Virus record (IMG/VR): IMGVR_UViG_3300004176_000001 | Span: 1-38,601 of that record | Source of the DNA: a virus | Length of the DNA: 38,601 nt | Reading direction: 5' to 3' (one strand) | Shown here: piece by piece, positions 1 through 38,601 of the stretch | Position numbering within the stretch: position 1 is the stretch's first letter | Layout of the letters: each line of letters starts with the position of its first letter | Notes under the pieces: model-generated | What the model was told of the DNA's origin: nothing | Databases searched by the model: none | What the model saw: the letters and a program-made list of their open reading frames with translations, nothing else | Made by a program: the position numbers and the translations under genes

Positions 1-56
1 GGGTTTGCCGCCGGCGCAGGGTCGGAGTTCATCACCGGCAACGGCGTCGGCAAGGC
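1..56. repeat. Terminal direct repeat (circular assembly overlap), left copy
   Basis: These 56 bases are identical to 38546-38601. The capsid reading frame continues exactly across the join, so the repeat is the overlap left when a circular or circularly permuted molecule is assembled as a line. A true virion terminal repeat is possible but less likely, because it lies in the middle of the capsid gene. Confidence 0.9.
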
Positions 57-17980: not shown

Positions 17981-18346
17981 CGTTTCTTATCTCCCCTAAT
18001 GCGCTCAGGTTTAGCGCCCCGCCGAGCCCCGGCGGGTTGGGACGTTTCGGGTTTTCCGATTCGTTGGAAATAATTGACGCGCATTGCGCGTAATTGTCAA
18101 TACCCCATTAAAAATATTTCTTTTGCCTAGTTGCAATAGGTTTGTAACTTATTGATAAATATAGGCTATTAATATAAAAATGGTTGCAGTTAAATAATGT
18201 TAAGCCATTGATTTATCGGCATTGATAATCTAATTGTGATTCCTGTTGTCGCGGGTTCGAGCCCCGTCGTTCACCCCAATTAAATCAATACATTGGCCGT
18301 CATTCGCCAAGTCAATTCTAACTGCTGGTTGCAACCCTGGTTGCAA
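17981..18346. other. Intergenic region containing attP
   Basis: 366 bases without a gene. It holds a GC hairpin CCCGCCG-AGCCC-CGGCGGG (18018-18036) without a T run, an A/T-rich stretch at about 18100-18235, the tRNA-His-derived attP core at 18233-18278, and GTTGCAAC/GGTTGCAATT repeats (about 18320-18345 and related GGTTGCAG at 18182) that may be integrase arm sites. Upstream of the 17980 start no clear promoter is seen. Confidence 0.6.
18233..18278 (+). other. attP: attP core: 3' half of tRNA-His(GTG)
   Basis: The sequence runs from the anticodon loop (TTGTGAT, anticodon GTG at 18236-18238) through TCCTG, a T arm (GCGGG-TTCGAGC-CCCGT), the 3' acceptor strand CGTTCAC, discriminator C and CCA at 18276-18278. 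It matches the second half of a bacterial tRNA-His, in which C73 is diagnostic. The 5' half is absent: upstream bases cannot pair with the anticodon stem. This is the classic structure of a phage attachment core that restores the host tRNA after integration, and it lies 330 bases from the integrase gene. Confidence 0.9.
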
Positions 18347-18606: not shown

Positions 18607-19728
18607 TTAATTCCTCGTCGGTTCAACGATATCAATCCCCACATCATAAATCCGCATCATCGATGCTGACCTATGCCCTGAGCCTTGCATTTTATCATGC
18701 GAGGTGCCCTCGGTGTCCGTCACGGCCTTGCGCTTGATATCATGAAAGGTAAAATCATTATACTCAACACCGTCGCGGGCGGCTTGTTGGCCGGCAGTGG
18801 CGCTGATCCGGCTTTTCGCGGTTTTAAATCCGCGCTCGGTGATGCGGTTGCCGGTGCGGTCGCTGATAATTAAAAAGCGGCGGTCGGGCTGGATGGGATG
18901 TGGCTGTTTGCGTTTAGCCAGGATCGCGTTGCGTCCCTGCTTGAGCGCGTCCCAGGCGGCGCGAAGGCGTGGGCTCCATTTGGTGATGTTGGTTTTGCTT
19001 CCTTTGCGTCGGATGATTTTCAGGCCGATGTCGAGCTCGTTGGCGTCGGTCATGTCCAGCACTTCGGACAGTCGCATCCGGCATTCGTAGGCCAATTCCA
19101 TGGCATACTGCATGTACCAGGAGCCCGATTGTTTGGCTACGTTGAGCATATAATGATAGTCACGATCCTCGGCGTAATGCTGGCGGGGCGGGATGCTGAT
19201 TTTTTTAATGCCGATGGCGGGATTGACGGGGATTTTTTCGTATTCGTAGGCCCAGGCAAACAAACGCCGGATGTAACTTATTTCCTTGTTCGCTCGGCTT
19301 TCGGATTCCTCCGCGCGTTTGTCGCGGTATTTTCGGATCAGGCCGACGGTCCATTTATCCAGCGGCACATCGCCCAGGCGTCCGCTGCTGGTGGCCTGGG
19401 CGACGATGGCCAGGTGGCAATATTCGTAATCCGATTGTGTGGACCGGGCTAGTTTTCGCCATAGGGGCGTTGCCTGGAATTCCGCGGACAGCGTCGAAAA
19501 GGTGCTGATGGTTTTTTCTTGCTGCGCTTCGTAGGCCTGCCAGATTTCGGCCAGCTTGGCGTCCGGTCCGCAAAGTCTACGGGTTTTGCGGCGATGGAAT
19601 TCGTCGTAATAGTTGAGCATCCACTTACCGGCGCCCGAGGCATTAAACCAGACGCGCTCAGGCAACTTCTCGGCATTGATGTGCGCCGGGATGTTTTTGG
19701 ATGAGCGATGGCGGCCGGTTTTTTTCAT
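18607..19728 (-). CDS. int: Tyrosine recombinase, phage integrase
   Basis: A 373-residue protein with an N-terminal arm-binding region (WFNASGAGKWMLNYYDEFHR), a core-binding SAM-like helical domain (about 80-180) and a catalytic domain. Visible active-site residues are Arg in AYECRMRLSEVLDMT, Lys in the beta hairpin IRRKGSKTN, HDIKRK in place of HxxRR (Lys at the second Arg position), His in GSGHRSASMM and Tyr in MRIYDVG. There is no IntI-specific extra helix, so this is a phage integrase and not an integron integrase. It would recombine attP at 18233-18278 with the host tRNA-His gene. It is read leftward, downstream of the cassette array. Confidence 0.92.
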   Translation of the reverse strand: MKKTGRHRSSKNIPAHINAEKLPERVWFNASGAGKWMLNYYDEFHRRKTRRLCGPDAKLAEIWQAYEAQQEKTISTFSTLSAEFQATPLWRKLARSTQSDYEYCHLAIVAQATSSGRLGDVPLDKWTVGLIRKYRDKRAEESESRANKEISYIRRLFAWAYEYEKIPVNPAIGIKKISIPPRQHYAEDRDYHYMLNVAKQSGSWYMQYAMELAYECRMRLSEVLDMTDANELDIGLKIIRRKGSKTNITKWSPRLRAAWDALKQGRNAILAKRKQPHPIQPDRRFLIISDRTGNRITERGFKTAKSRISATAGQQAARDGVEYNDFTFHDIKRKAVTDTEGTSHDKMQGSGHRSASMMRIYDVGIDIVEPTRN

Positions 19729-19866
19729 TATGATGTGGATTAAATTTATTTTAGGCTATACTAAATATAACTATAATCTTGATAAATAAATGATTTTTGT
19801 TGCTTTATAATTATTAGTCGTCAAAATGACGCAATGTTTTACATCTATTAGGATGCCTAATTAGCG
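19729..19866. promoter_or_regulatory. A/T-rich gap upstream of integrase
   Basis: 138 bases without a gene, strongly A/T-rich. It may hold the integrase promoter, but I see no -35/-10 pair good enough to name. The right end carries GCCTAATTAGCGTTAGGC (19855-19872), an inverted pair of attC-type cores that marks the left end of the cassette array. Confidence 0.4.
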
Positions 19867-19872
19867 TTAGGC
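19855..19872 (+). repeat. attC core pair at left end of array
   Basis: GCCTAA-TTAGC-GTTAGGC: a perfect GTTRRRY core (GTTAGGC) and an inverted partner, without L boxes between them. The stop codon of the first cassette gene (TAA, minus strand) lies inside the core. It is either a worn-down attC or the boundary core left by insertion. Confidence 0.6.
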
Positions 19873-20070
19873 GTCATATCCGCGCAGGTTTTCTAGTGCT
19901 CGCAACATCGCAACCACATCGCCACTCGCGGATGCTATTTCTGCTTCTCGTAACGAGTTTTTCATCATCGCTAAAGCGAAAGCACCTGGAGCGCCAATGC
20001 TTTCGTAAATTGGTATTAATTCTCGAACTCGCTCTTGTTCCTTTGGTAATGCATCTGCTAAAGTTTCCAT
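19867..20070 (-). CDS. Cassette gene 1: 67-residue conserved small protein
   Basis: The start is ATG at 20070 with ribosome site AGGAG; the frame also extends upstream through attC-1 but that part is attC sequence. The protein METLADALPKEQERVRELIP continues with ESIGAPGAFALAMMK and ends SGDVVAMLRALENLRGYDA. Small helical proteins of this pattern recur in phages and mobile arrays, from memory; function is unknown. No membrane segment. The stop overlaps the GTTAGGC core. It is transcribed leftward, opposite to the attC orientation. Confidence 0.75.
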   Translation of the reverse strand: METLADALPKEQERVRELIPIYESIGAPGAFALAMMKNSLREAEIASASGDVVAMLRALENLRGYDA

Positions 20071-20082
20071 ATAATCTCCTAC

Positions 20083-20170
20083 GTCTAACTCGGCGCTCAA
20101 CCGGAGCGCGGTCATAATTCGGTTTCATTGTTCAGACTTCGGGCCGCGCCCGTTTAGCTTTGCGTTATAC
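20083..20170 (+). repeat. attC: attC-1 (integron-type recombination site)
   Basis: Read on the plus strand: R'' GTCTAAC, spacer TCGGC, L'' GCTCAACCGGAGCGCGG, loop of about 32 bases, L' CCGCGCCCGTTTAGC, spacer TTTGC, R' GTTATAC. The L'' arm has an unpaired C (GCTcAAC) and A (CGGaGCG) relative to L', the extrahelical bases that set attC polarity. On the minus strand the right end reads GTTAGAC, a perfect core. Confidence 0.88.
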
Positions 20171-20171
20171 A

Positions 20172-20462
20172 TCAAATTTGTAACTCATTTAGCGTGAAAT
20201 CGTTTTTGCAGCCGCAGCATTTATATTCGATTTCCATATTTTCCCATACAGCCGGTTTGGTGTTCGTTCCGAATAATGCCAAACCTAATAAATCCTCACC
20301 GTTACAATATTCTGTTTCATCATCCGTGTATGGATAATTATTCAAATTTAACTGCCTGCCGCAATTGGGGCAGTTAACATATACGCCATACGATATTGTG
20401 CCGTGTATAACCCGGCGCTCAACCGGACCCGCAACAGCGGGCGAGTTTTGTTCATTTGTCAT
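20172..20462 (-). CDS. Cassette gene 2: 96-residue zinc-ribbon-like protein starting inside an attC
   Basis: The only usable start is ATG at 20462, in the loop of attC-2, with GGGAG upstream. The first 18 residues (MTNEQNSPAVAGPVERRV) are translated attC arm. The cassette-specific part has two CxxC pairs (YVNCPNCGRQLN and YKCCGCKNDF), suggesting a zinc ribbon, and a middle section LLGLALFGTNTKPAVWENME. It ends one codon from the attC-1 core. Function unknown; the start within the recombination site is notable. Confidence 0.7.
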   Translation of the reverse strand: MTNEQNSPAVAGPVERRVIHGTISYGVYVNCPNCGRQLNLNNYPYTDDETEYCNGEDLLGLALFGTNTKPAVWENMEIEYKCCGCKNDFTLNELQI

Positions 20463-20506
20463 AGTCTTTCTCCCGCTGTTGCGGTCCGGTTAGCTTTGCG
20501 TTATGC
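20405..20506 (+). repeat. attC: attC-2 (integron-type recombination site, long arm)
   Basis: Plus strand: GTATAAC, spacer CCGGC, arm GCTCAACCGGACCCGCAACA plus GCGGG, loop of about 30 bases, returning arm CCCGCTGTTGCGGTCCGGTT plus AGC, spacer TTTGC, GTTATGC. The stem is longer than in the other copies, 23 paired bases, with an unpaired C after GCT and one extra base near GGAC in the 5' arm. It contains the start of cassette gene 2 and the end of cassette gene 3. Confidence 0.88.
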
Positions 20507-20622
20507 AACTTCATATGATCTCTGCATTTTTTGCAGACAGCTTTTTTACAGTTCTTTTTTTTGCCGCATCTGATGCACGGTTGTATATATTTTTTCCGTA
20601 TATCAGCCATCTGGTTTTTCAT
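20452..20622 (-). CDS. Cassette gene 3: 56-residue Cys/Lys-rich protein ending inside an attC
   Basis: The start is ATG at 20622 with AGGA seven bases upstream; an in-frame ATG at 20637 inside attC-3 is an alternative. It carries four zinc-type cysteines in CIRCGKKKNCKKAVCKKC, then reads on through the 5' side of attC-2 (LHNAKLTGPQQREKDYDK) and stops in its loop, 11 bases past the start of cassette gene 2. The gene is strongly basic and may bind nucleic acid. No family is recognised. Confidence 0.65.
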   Translation of the reverse strand: MKNQMADIRKKYIQPCIRCGKKKNCKKAVCKKCRDHMKLHNAKLTGPQQREKDYDK

Positions 20623-20633
20623 ACATAATTCCT

Positions 20634-20722
20634 GCATAACCCGTCGCTCAACCGGAGCGCGGTCATAATGCGGTTTCATTTGTCAGTCATCCAGGCCGCG
20701 CCCGGTTAGCTCTGCGTTATAC
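20634..20722 (+). repeat. attC: attC-3 (integron-type recombination site)
   Basis: Plus strand: GCATAAC, spacer CCGTC, GCTCAACCGGAGCGCGG, loop of about 33 bases, CCGCGCCCGGTTAGC, spacer TCTGC, GTTATAC. It carries the same two extrahelical bases (C, A) in the 5' arm as attC-1 and attC-4. The loop has ATGAAACCG on the minus strand, giving a possible start that reads PVERRV across the arm. Confidence 0.9.
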
Positions 20723-20726
20723 ACCA

Positions 20727-20981
20727 TTATGACGGCACCTCCCATGGCCTGTTTAAATCGCACGTAGGGCCGTTTTGTACGTCCCACAATTCTGATGCAG
20801 CAGCCTCGTGCTGTTTGCAGCACAAAGATAATTCAGCTTTCAATCTGATATTTTCTGATTGTAAGGCTCTTATTTTTTCAGCAGCTTCACGCATCAATGC
20901 CGTATCACTACCACAAGCTATCTTTTCGCCCATTTCCATAACACCGGCTTTTATATCAAGTCTCTCTGGTAAGTCTTTCAT
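20727..20981 (-). CDS. Cassette gene 4: 84-residue coiled-coil protein
   Basis: The start is ATG at 20981 with GAGAG upstream (AAAGAGAGTAATTATG). The protein opens MKDLPERLDIKAGVMEMGEK, has a heptad-type helix (REAAEKIRALQSENIRLKAE) and then CCKQHEAAASELWDVQ. Such coiled-coil miniproteins are common in phage early regions. It ends 4 bases from the core of attC-3. No enzymatic motif; function unknown. Confidence 0.72.
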   Translation of the reverse strand: MKDLPERLDIKAGVMEMGEKIACGSDTALMREAAEKIRALQSENIRLKAELSLCCKQHEAAASELWDVQNGPTCDLNRPWEVPS

Positions 20982-20999
20982 AATTACTCTCTTTAAGAT

Positions 21000-21086
21000 G
21001 TATAACCCTACGCTCAACCGGAGCGCGGTTATAGTACGGTTTCATTGTTTAGCTCCGGGCCGCGCCCGGTTAGCTTTGCGTTATGC
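21000..21086 (+). repeat. attC: attC-4 (integron-type recombination site)
   Basis: Plus strand: GTATAAC, spacer CCTAC, GCTCAACCGGAGCGCGG, loop of about 31 bases, CCGCGCCCGGTTAGC, spacer TTTGC, GTTATGC. This is the cleanest copy: 15 arm bases pair perfectly apart from the extrahelical C and A. The stop of cassette gene 5 (TAA) is formed by the GTTATGC core read on the minus strand. Confidence 0.92.
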
Positions 21087-21374
21087 CTTCATGAACTTTG
21101 GTTTTTCCGCCGCGCCCTTTTTCCCTTCGGCCTGCGGGCCATACTCGAAGTCCGGGCGCTCCATCACTGGCTCATCGCTAGCGAGTGCCAAGCGAGAAAC
21201 ATCGAACCAGCATTGGTCCATTAGTTTGCCGTCCTTGTCCGCGCCGGGATTCACAATCGCCTGCACGCAGCCGTAGAGGTCGAAGCTGATCGAAGCAACC
21301 ACGCCCTTAAAACCAGTAACCTTGTCCTCGACCTTCATGCCAAGCAAGTTGAGGTGTTTTTTCACATGTACCAT
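21081..21374 (-). CDS. Cassette gene 5: 97-residue conserved phage/array protein
   Basis: The start is ATG at 21374 with AGGAA upstream. The pattern GMKVEDKVTGFKGVVASISF and YGCVQAIVNPGADKDGKLMD then WFDVSRLAL is, from memory, a recurring small protein in phages: a beta barrel-like domain with no known function. The C-terminus is basic and rich in Gly and Lys. The stop codon is the TAA inside the attC-4 core (GCATAAC), so gene end and recombination core coincide. Confidence 0.8.
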   Translation of the reverse strand: MVHVKKHLNLLGMKVEDKVTGFKGVVASISFDLYGCVQAIVNPGADKDGKLMDQCWFDVSRLALASDEPVMERPDFEYGPQAEGKKGAAEKPKFMKA

Positions 21375-21404
21375 TTCTGGTTCCTTTCTTCGGAGTTGCG
21401 CCAG

Positions 21405-21471
21405 GCATAACCCGGCAGTCGATCTGACCTGCGCGAAAAAGCCGCGCAGTCAGCTCACTTTTGCGTTGTGC
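21405..21471 (+). repeat. attC: attC-5 (short integron-type site)
   Basis: Plus strand: GCATAAC, spacer CCGGC, arm AGTCGATCTGACCTGCGCG, six-base loop, arm CGCGCAGTCAGCTCAC, spacer TTTTGC, GTTGTGC. At 67 bases it is the classical short form with a small loop. The arm sequence differs from copies 1-4 but still carries extra bases in the 5' arm, giving the same plus-strand polarity. Confidence 0.82.
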
Positions 21472-21472
21472 G

Positions 21473-21676
21473 TCACAGTGGAACGTCCGCGCGTACCTCG
21501 CCGACAGCAAACCGCCGCTCGCGCTCGCCCATCGTGGTCACATCAACCAGCCCAATGTCTATGCTTTGCGGGCACATGCCGGTCTTTGCGAGAAACGCCT
21601 TCATGGCTTCGAGGACTGCCGCTTGGATCGAGTCTTCCATTTCGCGCCGCGCCACTCTGATTTGTTCAATGTCCAT
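21473..21676 (-). CDS. Cassette gene 6: 67-residue helical protein
   Basis: The start is taken at ATG 21676, six bases after GGAG; ATG at 21679 would add one Met. The protein has an amphipathic helix (IRVARREMEDSIQAAVLEAM) then TGMCPQSIDIGLVDVTTMG, a short beta strand, and ends GEVRADVPL. There is no recognised family or membrane segment. It stops one base from the attC-5 core. Confidence 0.7.
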   Translation of the reverse strand: MDIEQIRVARREMEDSIQAAVLEAMKAFLAKTGMCPQSIDIGLVDVTTMGERERRFAVGEVRADVPL

Positions 21677-21717
21677 CATCTTCTCCTGTTAAAAGTCGGC
21701 GCTGGTGAGGCGGCGCC

Positions 21718-21790
21718 GCACAACCCGTCACTCGTGTGGGACCTGCCGCGATGATGCCGCGTCAGGTCCCACAGTTCTAGCATTGTATAC
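21718..21790 (+). repeat. attC: attC-6 (diverged integron-type site)
   Basis: Plus strand: GCACAAC, spacer CCGTC, arm ACTCGTGTGGGACCTGCCGC, short loop, arm CCGCGTCAGGTCCCACAGTT, and a degenerate right end TTGTATAC. The arms pair over GTGGGACCTG plus flanks. The right core has lost the GTTRRRY form, so the site may be weak or dead in one direction. Confidence 0.7.
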
Positions 21791-21791
21791 A

Positions 21792-21989
21792 TTAATCGAC
21801 AATAATAAATTGATCGGCTCTATTAATGATGTCTAAAAACGACAATCCTCTTTTATATCCGCTGTCGTTTTTTAATATCCCAGCGGCCATGCCTTCATTA
21901 GGCAAAACAAGGTAACAATCACCGTCTTTGTAATTAATTCTTTTGCCATTTATTAAAGCCGCAAATATAGCGTTTGCTAATTCGTTCAT
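21792..21989 (-). CDS. Cassette gene 7: 65-residue protein
   Basis: The start is ATG at 21989 with GAGG eight bases upstream. The protein MNELANAIFAALINGKRINY continues KDGDCYLVLPNEGMAAGIL and ends DIINRADQFIIVD, an alpha-beta pattern without known motifs. The stop is adjacent to the right end of attC-6. The cassette is noticeably A/T-richer than its neighbours, which suggests a separate origin. Confidence 0.7.
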   Translation of the reverse strand: MNELANAIFAALINGKRINYKDGDCYLVLPNEGMAAGILKNDSGYKRGLSFLDIINRADQFIIVD

Positions 21990-22004
21990 TTATTAATCCT
22001 CAAA

Positions 22005-22125
22005 GTACAACAAGTTAGTCAAAGCGACAGGCCGCCCGTAGCGGCTGTCAAAGATAGTGGTTTTTCAAGCCTCGCGGCTTTGTGAAAGGTCATGTAGTGG
22101 CCTGCGCCTTACTGTGGCGTTAGGC
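22005..22125 (+). repeat. attC: attC-7 (long, VCR-like integron site)
   Basis: Plus strand: GTACAAC, arm AGTCAAAGCGACAGGCC, long loop of about 65-70 bases that itself folds (TCAAGCCTCGCGGCTTTGTGA), arm GGCCTGCGCCTTACT, spacer GTGGC, GTTAGGC, a perfect GTTRRRY core. The 5' arm again has an extra C (AGTcAAAG) and A (GCGaCAGG). The 121-base length is like Vibrio-type sites and different from copies 1-6. Confidence 0.85.
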
Positions 22126-22147
22126 ACTACAATAATTCTCTTCTCCC

Positions 22148-22170
22148 GTCTAACCTTACGCTCAATCCAG
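22148..22170 (+). repeat. attC-8, half site overlapping the next gene
   Basis: GTCTAAC, spacer CTTAC, then GCTCAATCCAG, the R'' and L'' boxes of the copies-1-4 type; on the minus strand it ends in GTTAGAC, a perfect core. No returning arm or right core is found to the right, where gene 22162-22554 begins to be read. Only 22 bases separate it from attC-7, so one cassette is empty. Confidence 0.7.
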
Positions 22171-22554
22171 ATTGCGCGCAGTCGATCCATCGCGCAGCGT
22201 CAGGACGTCTCCGCACGATGAAATAACTTCTGTACTAAGTATGGTTTTGGTGCCGTCTGCCAGTTCGGCGTGGAATTTCCAGCCCGCCCATTTTGGCAGG
22301 TCAATCGCCGACGGATCATCAACCTGGCCGACAACAAGCCATTTAAAGCCATCGTCTAAAATTGCCATCAGCAGTTCATTTTTCATCGCGAAGTGGGAGA
22401 ATCCTGGCGTTGTTTGATGCCATTTAACTATGTCCAGCGCCAGCAGTTCTTGGGTGCCAAAAAACCAACGATGTTTTACGTAGGCGCTATCGGAGATGAA
22501 TTCCGGGATGTGTTGTCTAAATCTGTTCATTTTAGTCGCCTGGTCTTCGGTCAT
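22162..22554 (-). CDS. 130-residue early protein of unknown function
   Basis: Starts by overlapping the stop of the next upstream gene (ATGA). The protein (MTEDQATKMNRFRQHIPEFI) contains aromatic-rich segments (AYVKHRWFFGTQELLALDIV; KWLVVGQVDDPSAIDLPKWA) and ends LTLRDGSTARNLD. The final codons are read through the attC half site at 22148-22170, so its 3' end may have been replaced when the array was inserted. No family recognised. Confidence 0.65.
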   Translation of the reverse strand: MTEDQATKMNRFRQHIPEFISDSAYVKHRWFFGTQELLALDIVKWHQTTPGFSHFAMKNELLMAILDDGFKWLVVGQVDDPSAIDLPKWAGWKFHAELADGTKTILSTEVISSCGDVLTLRDGSTARNLD

Positions 22555-22754
22555 AAGATTTCAATCGGTTGATTTTTTGCAGGTTTACCGGATTTTAACC
22601 CCATTGCGGCATTGAGTGCATCCACTGTTGTATAAATTCCGGTTTTGCCGTATAAAAAACGCACGCCATTTTTCCGCAGGCACTTTTCGAGGTCGCCCAG
22701 ACGCGTGCAATTGTTCGCGGCTTTGAGTTCTTCGTAAGTGACTATGGTACTCAT
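22551..22754 (-). CDS. Small DUF4224-like protein
   Basis: A 67-residue protein: VTYEELKAANNCTRLGDLEK, then CLRKNGVRFLYGKTGIYTTV and ALNAAMGLKSGK. The pattern TYEELK...LRKNGIxFxxGxxGxYTT resembles the DUF4224 family of short phage proteins with a winged-helix-like layout, often near integrase or regulators. Possibly DNA-binding. ATGA overlap couples it to the downstream gene. Confidence 0.65.
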   Translation of the reverse strand: MSTIVTYEELKAANNCTRLGDLEKCLRKNGVRFLYGKTGIYTTVDALNAAMGLKSGKPAKNQPIEIL

Positions 22755-23651: not shown

Positions 23652-24080
23652 TTAAATTTCCTTGGTTTTTGTTAGCATTAATTCGAGTCTTGCCAGGGCG
23701 TTCCAGGCGGTCTGCGATGCGTGCAGCAAACCGCTTTCATCATCGACTATTTCCCCGGTGGCCTCGGCCAAAAGATGTCTGAGCATGGCATCGGTGTATC
23801 GCGTCTCGCCGTCCTCGACGGTTTTCCAGCCATTTGGCGTATATTTGTTGGCGCGGGCCAGGATGTTGCTGCGAGCCAGGGCGAAACCAGCATAGACCGC
23901 GCCTGCGCCGCTAGTGCCGGCATTGAGGTTTTTTACCGCGGTGCTGACGCCGTCGATGATGTCTTCCGGTTGATACCGGGCTTTGGTGTGGAGGCTGTTG
24001 GCGATAAAGAATATGGTCGCGTGGACCACATGGGATAGTTTGGCGCTGTGCTGGAGTTGTCTCATGATTTCTGTTTTCAT
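23652..24080 (-). CDS. DUF5664 protein, predicted dATP/dGTP diphosphohydrolase-like
   Basis: A 142-residue protein from ATG at 24080. The C-terminal half shows the DUF5664 motif: NKYTPNGWKTVEDGETRYTD, AMLRHLLAEATGEIVDDESG, LLHASQTAWNALARLELML. The conserved His and Glu/Asp residues could bind metal and nucleotide as in MazG-like all-alpha pyrophosphohydrolases. Pfam names the family after dATP/dGTP diphosphohydrolase N-terminal regions, but activity varies and is unproven here. It may adjust deoxynucleotide pools for replication. Upstream in-frame starts exist but lack a ribosome site. Confidence 0.65.
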   Translation of the reverse strand: MKTEIMRQLQHSAKLSHVVHATIFFIANSLHTKARYQPEDIIDGVSTAVKNLNAGTSGAGAVYAGFALARSNILARANKYTPNGWKTVEDGETRYTDAMLRHLLAEATGEIVDDESGLLHASQTAWNALARLELMLTKTKEI

Positions 24081-24109
24081 TTTGGTTGCCTGTGTGGTTG
24101 GGTGGGTGA

Positions 24110-24535
24110 TTAGCCGTTTTGGTAGCGGTTGCGGATATGCAATTCCGGCCAATCGTCGTGGAGCTGGTTGAAGATGCGGTCGCCGTCGGAAATGACTTCG
24201 TGCGGCTCGCGGGAGAGTTTGACGCGGCCCAGGATGGCGGTGATGGCGGCGCTGAGGTAAATATCATCGATGCTGCAAAGATCGATCAGGTTGGTGTGGT
24301 AGTTCCAGCCGTTGTAAAGGTTAAGCAGCAGTTGGGCCGCTGCGCTGGAGCCGCCGCAATGCATGTCGGCGAGCTTTATCAGGGTTTGTACGGCCTGGGT
24401 GTAGTCGTCCATGGTGACATCGGTGTCGATGGTGCGGTTCGTGGGCGGCGCTTTTTTGGACGTGTTGAAATCAGCCAGACCATATGAGCTTGTGGGGGAA
24501 GTGGTAAACAGTTTTAATCGGGTTTGTTGGTTCAT
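24110..24535 (-). CDS. 141-residue early phage protein (DUF7673-like)
   Basis: The N-terminal 40 residues are low-complexity and polar. From residue 43 the pattern YTQAVQTLIKLADMHCGGSS, AAAQLLLNLYNGWNYHTNLI and DLCSIDDIYLSAAITAILGR resembles a family of small helical phage proteins (DUF7673-like, low certainty). No membrane segment. It is the second gene of the pL operon, with a ribosome site region close to the ATG at 24535. Confidence 0.55.
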   Translation of the reverse strand: MNQQTRLKLFTTSPTSSYGLADFNTSKKAPPTNRTIDTDVTMDDYTQAVQTLIKLADMHCGGSSAAAQLLLNLYNGWNYHTNLIDLCSIDDIYLSAAITAILGRVKLSREPHEVISDGDRIFNQLHDDWPELHIRNRYQNG

Positions 24536-27772: not shown

Positions 27773-27848
27773 AGCGGGGTAGAGCAGTTGGTAGCTCGTC
27801 AGTCTCATAAGCTGAAGGTCGCCGGTTCGAATCCGGCCCCCGCTTCCA
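27773..27848 (+). tRNA. tRNA-Met (CAT anticodon)
   Basis: Complete cloverleaf: acceptor AGCGGGG/CCCCGCT (7 bp), D arm GAGC...GCTC, anticodon arm TCAGT-CTCATAA-GCTGA with CAT, variable AGGTC, T arm GCCGG-TTCGAAT-CCGGC, discriminator T and encoded CCA. CAT may be elongator Met, or Ile if the C is lysidine-modified; the unusual T discriminator gives no clear answer. It begins just 3 bases after the terminator T run. Confidence 0.92.
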
Positions 27849-27853
27849 TTTTA

Positions 27854-27926
27854 TGCATAGCCGCGCGGACGGAAGCGCAGTCGGTTAAATCCCGATTACA
27901 GGGTTCGAATCCCTGCTATGCGCCCC
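27854..27926 (+). tRNA. tRNA-like sequence, degenerate, identity uncertain
   Basis: It can fold as acceptor TGCATAG/CTATGCG (one G-T pair), D stem GCGC/GCGC, anticodon stem GTCGG/CCGAT with loop TTAAATC (anticodon AAA), and T arm CAGGG-TTCGAAT-CCCTG. However, base 8 is C, the variable loop is only 2 bases, and no CCA is encoded (CCCC follows). An alternative D-arm reading (AGTCGGTTA) would leave no proper anticodon arm. Probably a decayed or rearranged tRNA. Confidence 0.5.
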
Positions 27927-37762: not shown

Positions 37763-38601
37763 ATGAAAATTACATCCCGCGTGGCCTGGTCGCTTCTGGC
37801 GATCCTCGGCCTATTCATCGCCCAGGCGCTGGGCTACACCGCATCCGCCGAGGAATTAACCGCCGGCGGCCTAATGCTGGCAGGCGTCGGCGACATTGAA
37901 TTGAAAGACATCAACGATATGCTGCAAAAGCAGGGCAATATCTTTGAGGAATTCAAAACCAAAAACGACGAACGCCTAAAATCTATCGAGTCAAAAGGCT
38001 GGGCTCCCGCCGATTTAACCGAACAGGTCGGACGCCTCAGCGAAGCCATGACCAAACTGGATAAAGAGATCCTTGAGATCCAGAAAAAGGCCAACCGCAT
38101 CCCCGGCGGCGCGGGTGAGATGACCGACGAGCAGCGCGAATATAAAGCCGCTTTTAACGATTATATCCGCAAGGGACGCACCGATAATCTAGCTGATATG
38201 CAACGCAAAGCCATGAATACCGGTACGGATTCCGAGGGCGGCTATTTAGTCCTTCCGGAAATGGATCAAATGATCGATCGCATCGTTCCAACGATCAGCG
38301 CCGTTTATCGACTGGCTAATAACGTCACCATCGGCTCGGCGCGGTATGAAAAGCTGATTAAAACTGCCGGCATGACGATGGCACGTGTCGCCGAAGGCGC
38401 AACCGCAGGCGAAACCACTGAGCCTACCTACTCAAAAGTCGCCATCGATGTGTTTCCGGCGGAAGTTGAGCCCTGGGTAAACAACGAAACCCTGCAAGAT
38501 GCTTTAATCGATCTTGAGAACGATCTGGCGATGGAAGCGGCCATCGGGTTTGCCGCCGGCGCAGGGTCGGAGTTCATCACCGGCAACGGCGTCGGCAAGG
38601 C
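37763..38601 (+). CDS. Major capsid protein, HK97 fold, N-terminal part with signal-like leader
   Basis: The start ATG at 37763 follows AGGA by seven bases. The gene continues at position 1 through the 56-bp overlap for a total of about 448 residues. Residues 1-36 unexpectedly resemble a Sec signal peptide (MKITSRVAWSLLAILGLFIA, then a TASA site). Residues about 40-115 are a coiled-coil scaffold (delta) domain (DINDMLQKQGNIFEEFKTKN; LTEQVGRLSEAMTKLDKEIL). The HK97 core begins near residue 130 (YKAAFNDYIRKG) with NTGTDSEGGYLVLPEMDQMI, the family hallmark. Protease cleavage near residue 120-130 would remove leader and scaffold. An internal start (residue 38, MLAGVGDIELK) lacks a ribosome site. 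Confidence 0.94.
   Translation, partial: MKITSRVAWSLLAILGLFIAQALGYTASAEELTAGGLMLAGVGDIELKDINDMLQKQGNIFEEFKTKNDERLKSIESKGWAPADLTEQVGRLSEAMTKLDKEILEIQKKANRIPGGAGEMTDEQREYKAAFNDYIRKGRTDNLADMQRKAMNTGTDSEGGYLVLPEMDQMIDRIVPTISAVYRLANNVTIGSARYEKLIKTAGMTMARVAEGATAGETTEPTYSKVAIDVFPAEVEPWVNNETLQDALIDLENDLAMEAAIGFAAGAGSEFITGNGVGK
38546..38601. repeat. Terminal direct repeat, right copy
   Basis: Identical to 1-56; see the left copy. The capsid frame is preserved across the join (codon boundary at 38546). Confidence 0.9.

Follow-up and report, generated by a model that had tools for sequence, protein, structure and literature searches.

An attI-headed array of reversed gene cassettes, lacking an integron integrase, in a temperate phage of Methylococcaceae

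A complete temperate phage genome recovered from a metagenome carries an array of seven attC-bearing cassettes headed by a single attI of the type found in its host family, and every cassette gene in it runs antisense to its attC. The genome is the IMG/VR virus record IMGVR_UViG_3300004176_000001, a metagenomic contig of 38,601 nt that was analysed over its full length (hereafter the window), and the host family is the methane-oxidising Methylococcaceae. In our judgement the array is probably an integron platform without an integrase, resident in a temperate phage that integrates at tRNA-His, with its genes reversed and its cassettes moved by the IntI of the host. A wider proposition is that integrase-less, attI-bearing phage integrons are widespread, hijack host IntI in trans and draw on an inverted cassette pool of their own, orientation being the code that separates the phage pool from the bacterial one; on this we are evenly divided.

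A 56-bp terminal repeat (window 1-56 and 38546-38601) closes the contig into a complete circular genome of 38,545 bp. The phage encodes a terminase, a portal, a DnaB-like helicase, a repressor, an integrase and an excisionase and, as far as reading and gene order tell, genes like those for a prohead protease and for a capsid protein, the capsid-like one being divided between the contig ends. The record is catalogued as linear, yet the circle closes inside the capsid-like gene. The array lies between int and xis, in what reads, on the sequence, as the leftward early operon of the phage (Table 1). Elsewhere in the genome, two tRNA genes, Met (cat) and Phe (aaa), directly follow the cro-like gene (27773-27925), Rfam detecting the first only, and the last 65 residues (C-terminal) of the product of 23652-24152 match a domain common to phrog_5033, annotated as endolysin, and phrog_801, annotated as dATP/dGTP pyrophosphohydrolase.

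Table 1. Features of the cassette array and its surroundings in the window
Feature	Position	Strand	Details
Phage attP core, 3' part of tRNA-His	18233..18278	+	45/46 nt identical to host tRNA-His
Phage tyrosine integrase (not IntI)	18607..19728	-	PF00589, phrog_1; TIGR02249 not matched
attI, host type A	19827..19872	+	predicted R-box cleavage between 19866 and 19867
Cassette 1 gene (C1)	19867..20070	-	ATG at 20070, GGAG upstream; antisense to attC
attC S1 (top strand plus)	20083..20170	+	R1 21.6 bits
Cassette 2 gene (C2), Cys-rich, zinc-ribbon-like; start codon inside attC S2	20172..20462	-	
attC S2	20405..20506	+	R1 33.8 bits
Cassette 3 gene (C3), Cys-rich; stop inside attC S2, overlaps C2 start	20452..20622	-	
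attC S3	20634..20722	+	R1 30.9 bits
Cassette 4 gene (C4)	20727..20981	-	
attC S4	21000..21086	+	R1 27.1 bits
Cassette 5 gene (C5), phage family phrog_37639	21081..21374	-	E 1.3e-34
attC S5, weaker	21405..21471	+	R1 15.8 bits unfiltered; finder 13.8
Cassette 6 gene (C6), weak phrog_1707	21473..21679	-	E 5.6e-4; RBS
attC S6, degenerate R'	21718..21788	+	R1 12.5 bits unfiltered
Cassette 7 gene (C7)	21792..21989	-	
attC S7, 121 bp, VCR-like length	22005..22125	+	R1 22.5 bits
Half attC, only R''-L'' kept; distal end of array	22148..22165	+	direct repeat family D4; 4.3 bits
Excisionase-like gene, operon neighbour	22551..22754	-	phrog_1266, E 3.7e-9

We searched for attC sites with a structural finder written for this analysis and validated on class 1 integrons (chance rate: 0.1 matches scoring 13 or more per 38.6 kb) and with a covariance model, R1, that was trained on 13 class 1 attC sites alone and recovers three sites in each of the phages TJE1 and PH101, for which sites have been published. 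With default settings over the whole window, R1 returns five attC and no other match. Run unfiltered, it ranks the seven complete sites at the top with 12.5-33.8 bits, the bottom strand always on minus, and gives the plus strand at these sites 5.7 at best. The structural finder scores S1-S5 at 12.6-15.5. The sites have R''/R' and L''/L' boxes, an extrahelical base in L'' and an asymmetric fold, clear in five of them and weaker in S5 and S6, the weakest complete sites. As with the top strands of class 1 sites, it is the plus strand that has the extra base of L'', and the bottom strand is predicted to fold more stably than the top strand at six of the seven sites, the two being equal at S1. All seven complete sites of the original prediction are confirmed at the coordinates it gave; at the half site it placed at 22148, R''-L'' is present, scoring just 4.3 bits. 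Rfam gives no attC-type match in the window. With at least two attC and no intI the array qualifies as a CALIN, to which the attI is an extra. A distant search of the array DNA against cultured phages returned a single 77-bp match.

The core pair at 19855, listed in the original prediction beside the attC, belongs instead to the attI, of which it forms the R end. This attI is identical to the host attI L187 at 37 of 46 nt and scores 64 against the host attI set, the null maximum in 1.16 Mb of simulated sequence being 34; a scan of 192 kb of control phage loci gave no match. As read from the host loci, the sites upstream of Methylococcaceae intI are mainly of three types that track IntI similarity: type A (GACGCAATGTTTTGCGTC...GTTAGGC), type B (ACACCTGAAAAGGTGTCTACTTAACGTTAGGC) and type C (GTCGTATACATTACGTTAGGC). 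Two relatives of the window phage over int and the structural genes (mostly 66-76% at the nucleotide level) carry an attI of another host type beside the homologous int: type B in L003 and type C in G015, the latter matched by eye. An insert of about 700 bp with two small genes is flanked in G015 by two copies of some 75 bp from the 5' end of int (L056 14180-15330); the duplication and insert adjoin an attI-like site.

The attI was also considered as the attP of the phage and rejected in that role. The attP-like core, which is the 3' part of tRNA-His, and the attI lie on opposite sides of int. In host genomes, homologous integrases adjoin tRNA-Pro/Arg/His with no attI or attC near them; the attI is therefore an added feature and not attP.

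All seven cassette genes lie on the minus strand, are preceded by ribosome-binding-like sequences and run antisense to their attC (7/7), a point that is absent from the original prediction. In six cases the start lies 12-39 bp past the R'' box of the gene's own attC; the exception is C2, which begins within the S2 loop, where C3 ends. The Pfam zinc-ribbon matches of C2 are weak and under cut-off, and C2 has no relatives in cultured phages or viral contigs. The search against phage families, likewise proposed at the outset, assigned C5 to phrog_37639 and C6 weakly to phrog_1707; no relatives of C6 were found in cultured phages. C5 has 24 viral relatives, and in none of them is the gene convincingly flanked by attC, so that in the window an ordinary phage gene has turned cassette.

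Cassette inversion recurs in many phages. We called the gene strand first by longest ORF, which left many gaps ambiguous, and hence by codon usage; the codon method miscalled one window gap as sense, where the C3 gene reaches into the attC sites and the ORF is minus. In host chromosomal arrays, scored with the same attC family and model, ORF length gives 48 sense, 2 antisense and 3 unclear cassettes, and codon usage 34, 4 and 11, respectively. In viral contigs codon usage gives 96 antisense, 14 sense and 9 unclear cassettes, and G068, the sole record with a full IntI, accounts for seven of the 14 sense ones. With G068 left out, 93 of the 100 scorable cassettes on IntI-less viral contigs are antisense and 7 sense, against 4 antisense among 38 chromosomal cassettes (Fisher, 5.5e-21; p-values here are nominal, as the test treats cassettes and contigs as independent and related phages are not). 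Taken by contig majority, the IntI-less viral set divides into 31 antisense and 2 sense, and wherever a scored contig matches terminase (phrog_2) or portal, its antisense cassettes outnumber or equal the sense ones. Two antisense cassettes lie in a MAG contig assigned to the host (L134 2885-5472); these may be phage-derived or belong to an unrecognised prophage.

As an independent test, IMG/VR was scanned with attI type B alone, which gave 24 new loci. At ten of these attC adjoins on the predicted strand; the ten arrays contain no IntI at the IntI model cut-off, and 23 of their 24 cassettes are antisense (the earlier viral set already included one of these records, G057). The other 14 loci have no attC, mostly lack a proper R box and are probably chance matches. 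The richest phage array seen is that of G057 (L346), a viral contig of 58 kb that matches terminase and carries a type B attI followed by a single array of at least nine attC. Insertion elsewhere leaves an ordinary sense cassette sense; the phage arrays are therefore no random draw from the bacterial cassettes, and phage cassettes appear to form a separate pool of their own.

The window encodes no IntI by the TIGR02249 model, and its tyrosine recombinase is a phage integrase; on both counts the original prediction was right. No IntI was found at the model cut-off in the first 29 viral records or in 28 of the 29 tested next, G068 being the one with a full IntI. Within Methylococcaceae, 91 of 201 sampled genomes encode IntI, so that mobility of the phage cassettes would depend on host IntI, and we infer that host IntI acting in trans is their simplest source of recombination. 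Set against a complete integron, the window has an attI heading the array; the intI gene is absent, and the genes, instead of lying sense to attC and being read from Pc, are antisense. The prediction of an integrase-less cassette array inside a temperate phage is supported. A fixed orientation of int relative to attC in all phages was looked for and not found.

We propose that cassettes most likely enter and leave at the attI and attC of the phage through the chromosomal IntI of the host, acting in trans. Operon transcription towards int and attI, presumably from an early leftward promoter, would read every reversed gene; each gene begins at or shortly downstream of its own attC. The most likely reason for the inversion is that reversed cassettes would work in a phage operon and be silent behind a bacterial Pc. 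Two further candidate reasons are that each gene may retain its own attC as a leader and that the bottom strand may, as the non-template strand, be exposed by transcription.

Weak S5 and S6 and the loss of half of the distal attC count against movement by host IntI and would fit a fossil array, in which old captures at sites that no longer recombine are kept by the phage merely for their useful genes. However, five attC and the attI are well preserved, related phages have the platform with different cassettes (no cassette DNA is common to the window and these phages), and some inter-phage cassette homologies begin at the R' cut, at most 2 bp from the predicted cleavage point (G024:39171 and L209:2575; G013:28 and L209:420, in this pair on the L209 side), with most homology edges in the inter-phage list falling off any cleavage point. 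We regard a fossil array as unlikely.

The position of each repeat, at or just upstream of a gene, with the C3 stop and the C2 start within S2, could also be that of phage RNA or DNA hairpins, for instance translation-insulating or translation-coupling leaders, whose likeness to attC arose by chance. Against this, an attC 17-mer of the window is shared with host integrons, with a concentration in Methylobacter and relatives, the extrahelical-base anatomy and strand asymmetry match class 1 sites, and the array is headed by attI. Such a chance likeness is very unlikely, and a leader role could be compatible with recombination of the sites.

That the phage integrase itself recognises attI and attC, running a phage version of the integron, is suggested by the layout int (-), attI, attC (+), which mirrors intI, attI, attC and is common to L003 and G015. 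We disfavour it as extremely improbable: Int fails the IntI model, one int lineage is accompanied by three attI types that match the host types, homologous integrases, next to tRNA-His, lack attI and attC, and for most of the viral arrays tested the contig carries no tyrosine integrase. That a phage and a chromosomal integron of the host were joined by misassembly, conceivable for a metagenomic contig, is hardly credible and was rejected, as the terminal repeat closes the genome, related contigs from other metagenomes show attI and attC beside the same int, and the cassettes of the window are inverted where chromosomal ones are sense.

Our observations suggest a modular platform with which phages swap genes at the cost of the host's integron enzyme, phage attI types following host IntI types. 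Systematic inversion is a simple, testable rule separating phage from bacterial cassettes; it allows such phages to be found by attI or orientation alone, and it bears on the origin of reversed-gene cassettes and on the exchange of small early genes among phages.

The original prediction saw little precedent for an array in a phage; in fact 17 phage attC clusters (CALINs) have been published, and five of six tested phage attC were active with IntI1 (Qi et al. 2023, PMC9892861). That study does not say how the genes are oriented with respect to attC, nor does it describe attI of host type in free phages. In the open-access journal full texts searched, neither systematic inversion of phage cassettes nor a match between host attI and those of free phages turned up, a result of this scope not being proof of novelty.

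Pseudoalteromonas phage PH101 (KR534323, named H101) resembles the window in having an attC cluster and no integrase; its attC recombine with IntI1 in an assay (PMC9892861) and, in our own reading of the record, its genes are antisense to attC. The cultured phage TJE1 (PMC9892861) also carries a CALIN and lacks IntI, yet its genes are sense, which counts against our explanation. An attI-headed CALIN has been published in the Shewanella prophage M16-3 (MZ568829; PMC9892861) and in that respect resembles the window, but M16-3 is cryptic, has its own IntI and carries its cassettes sense. Methylococcaceae chromosomal integrons share the attC family and attI types of the window, whereas they have their own intI beside attI, genes sense to attC and larger cassettes (median gap 646 vs 290 bp). 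Class 1 mobile integrons, finally, share the attC anatomy and strand asymmetry but have their own integrase, and 10 of their 10 scored cassette gaps are sense; the choice of the bottom strand sets cassette orientation for expression from Pc (PMC8946536).
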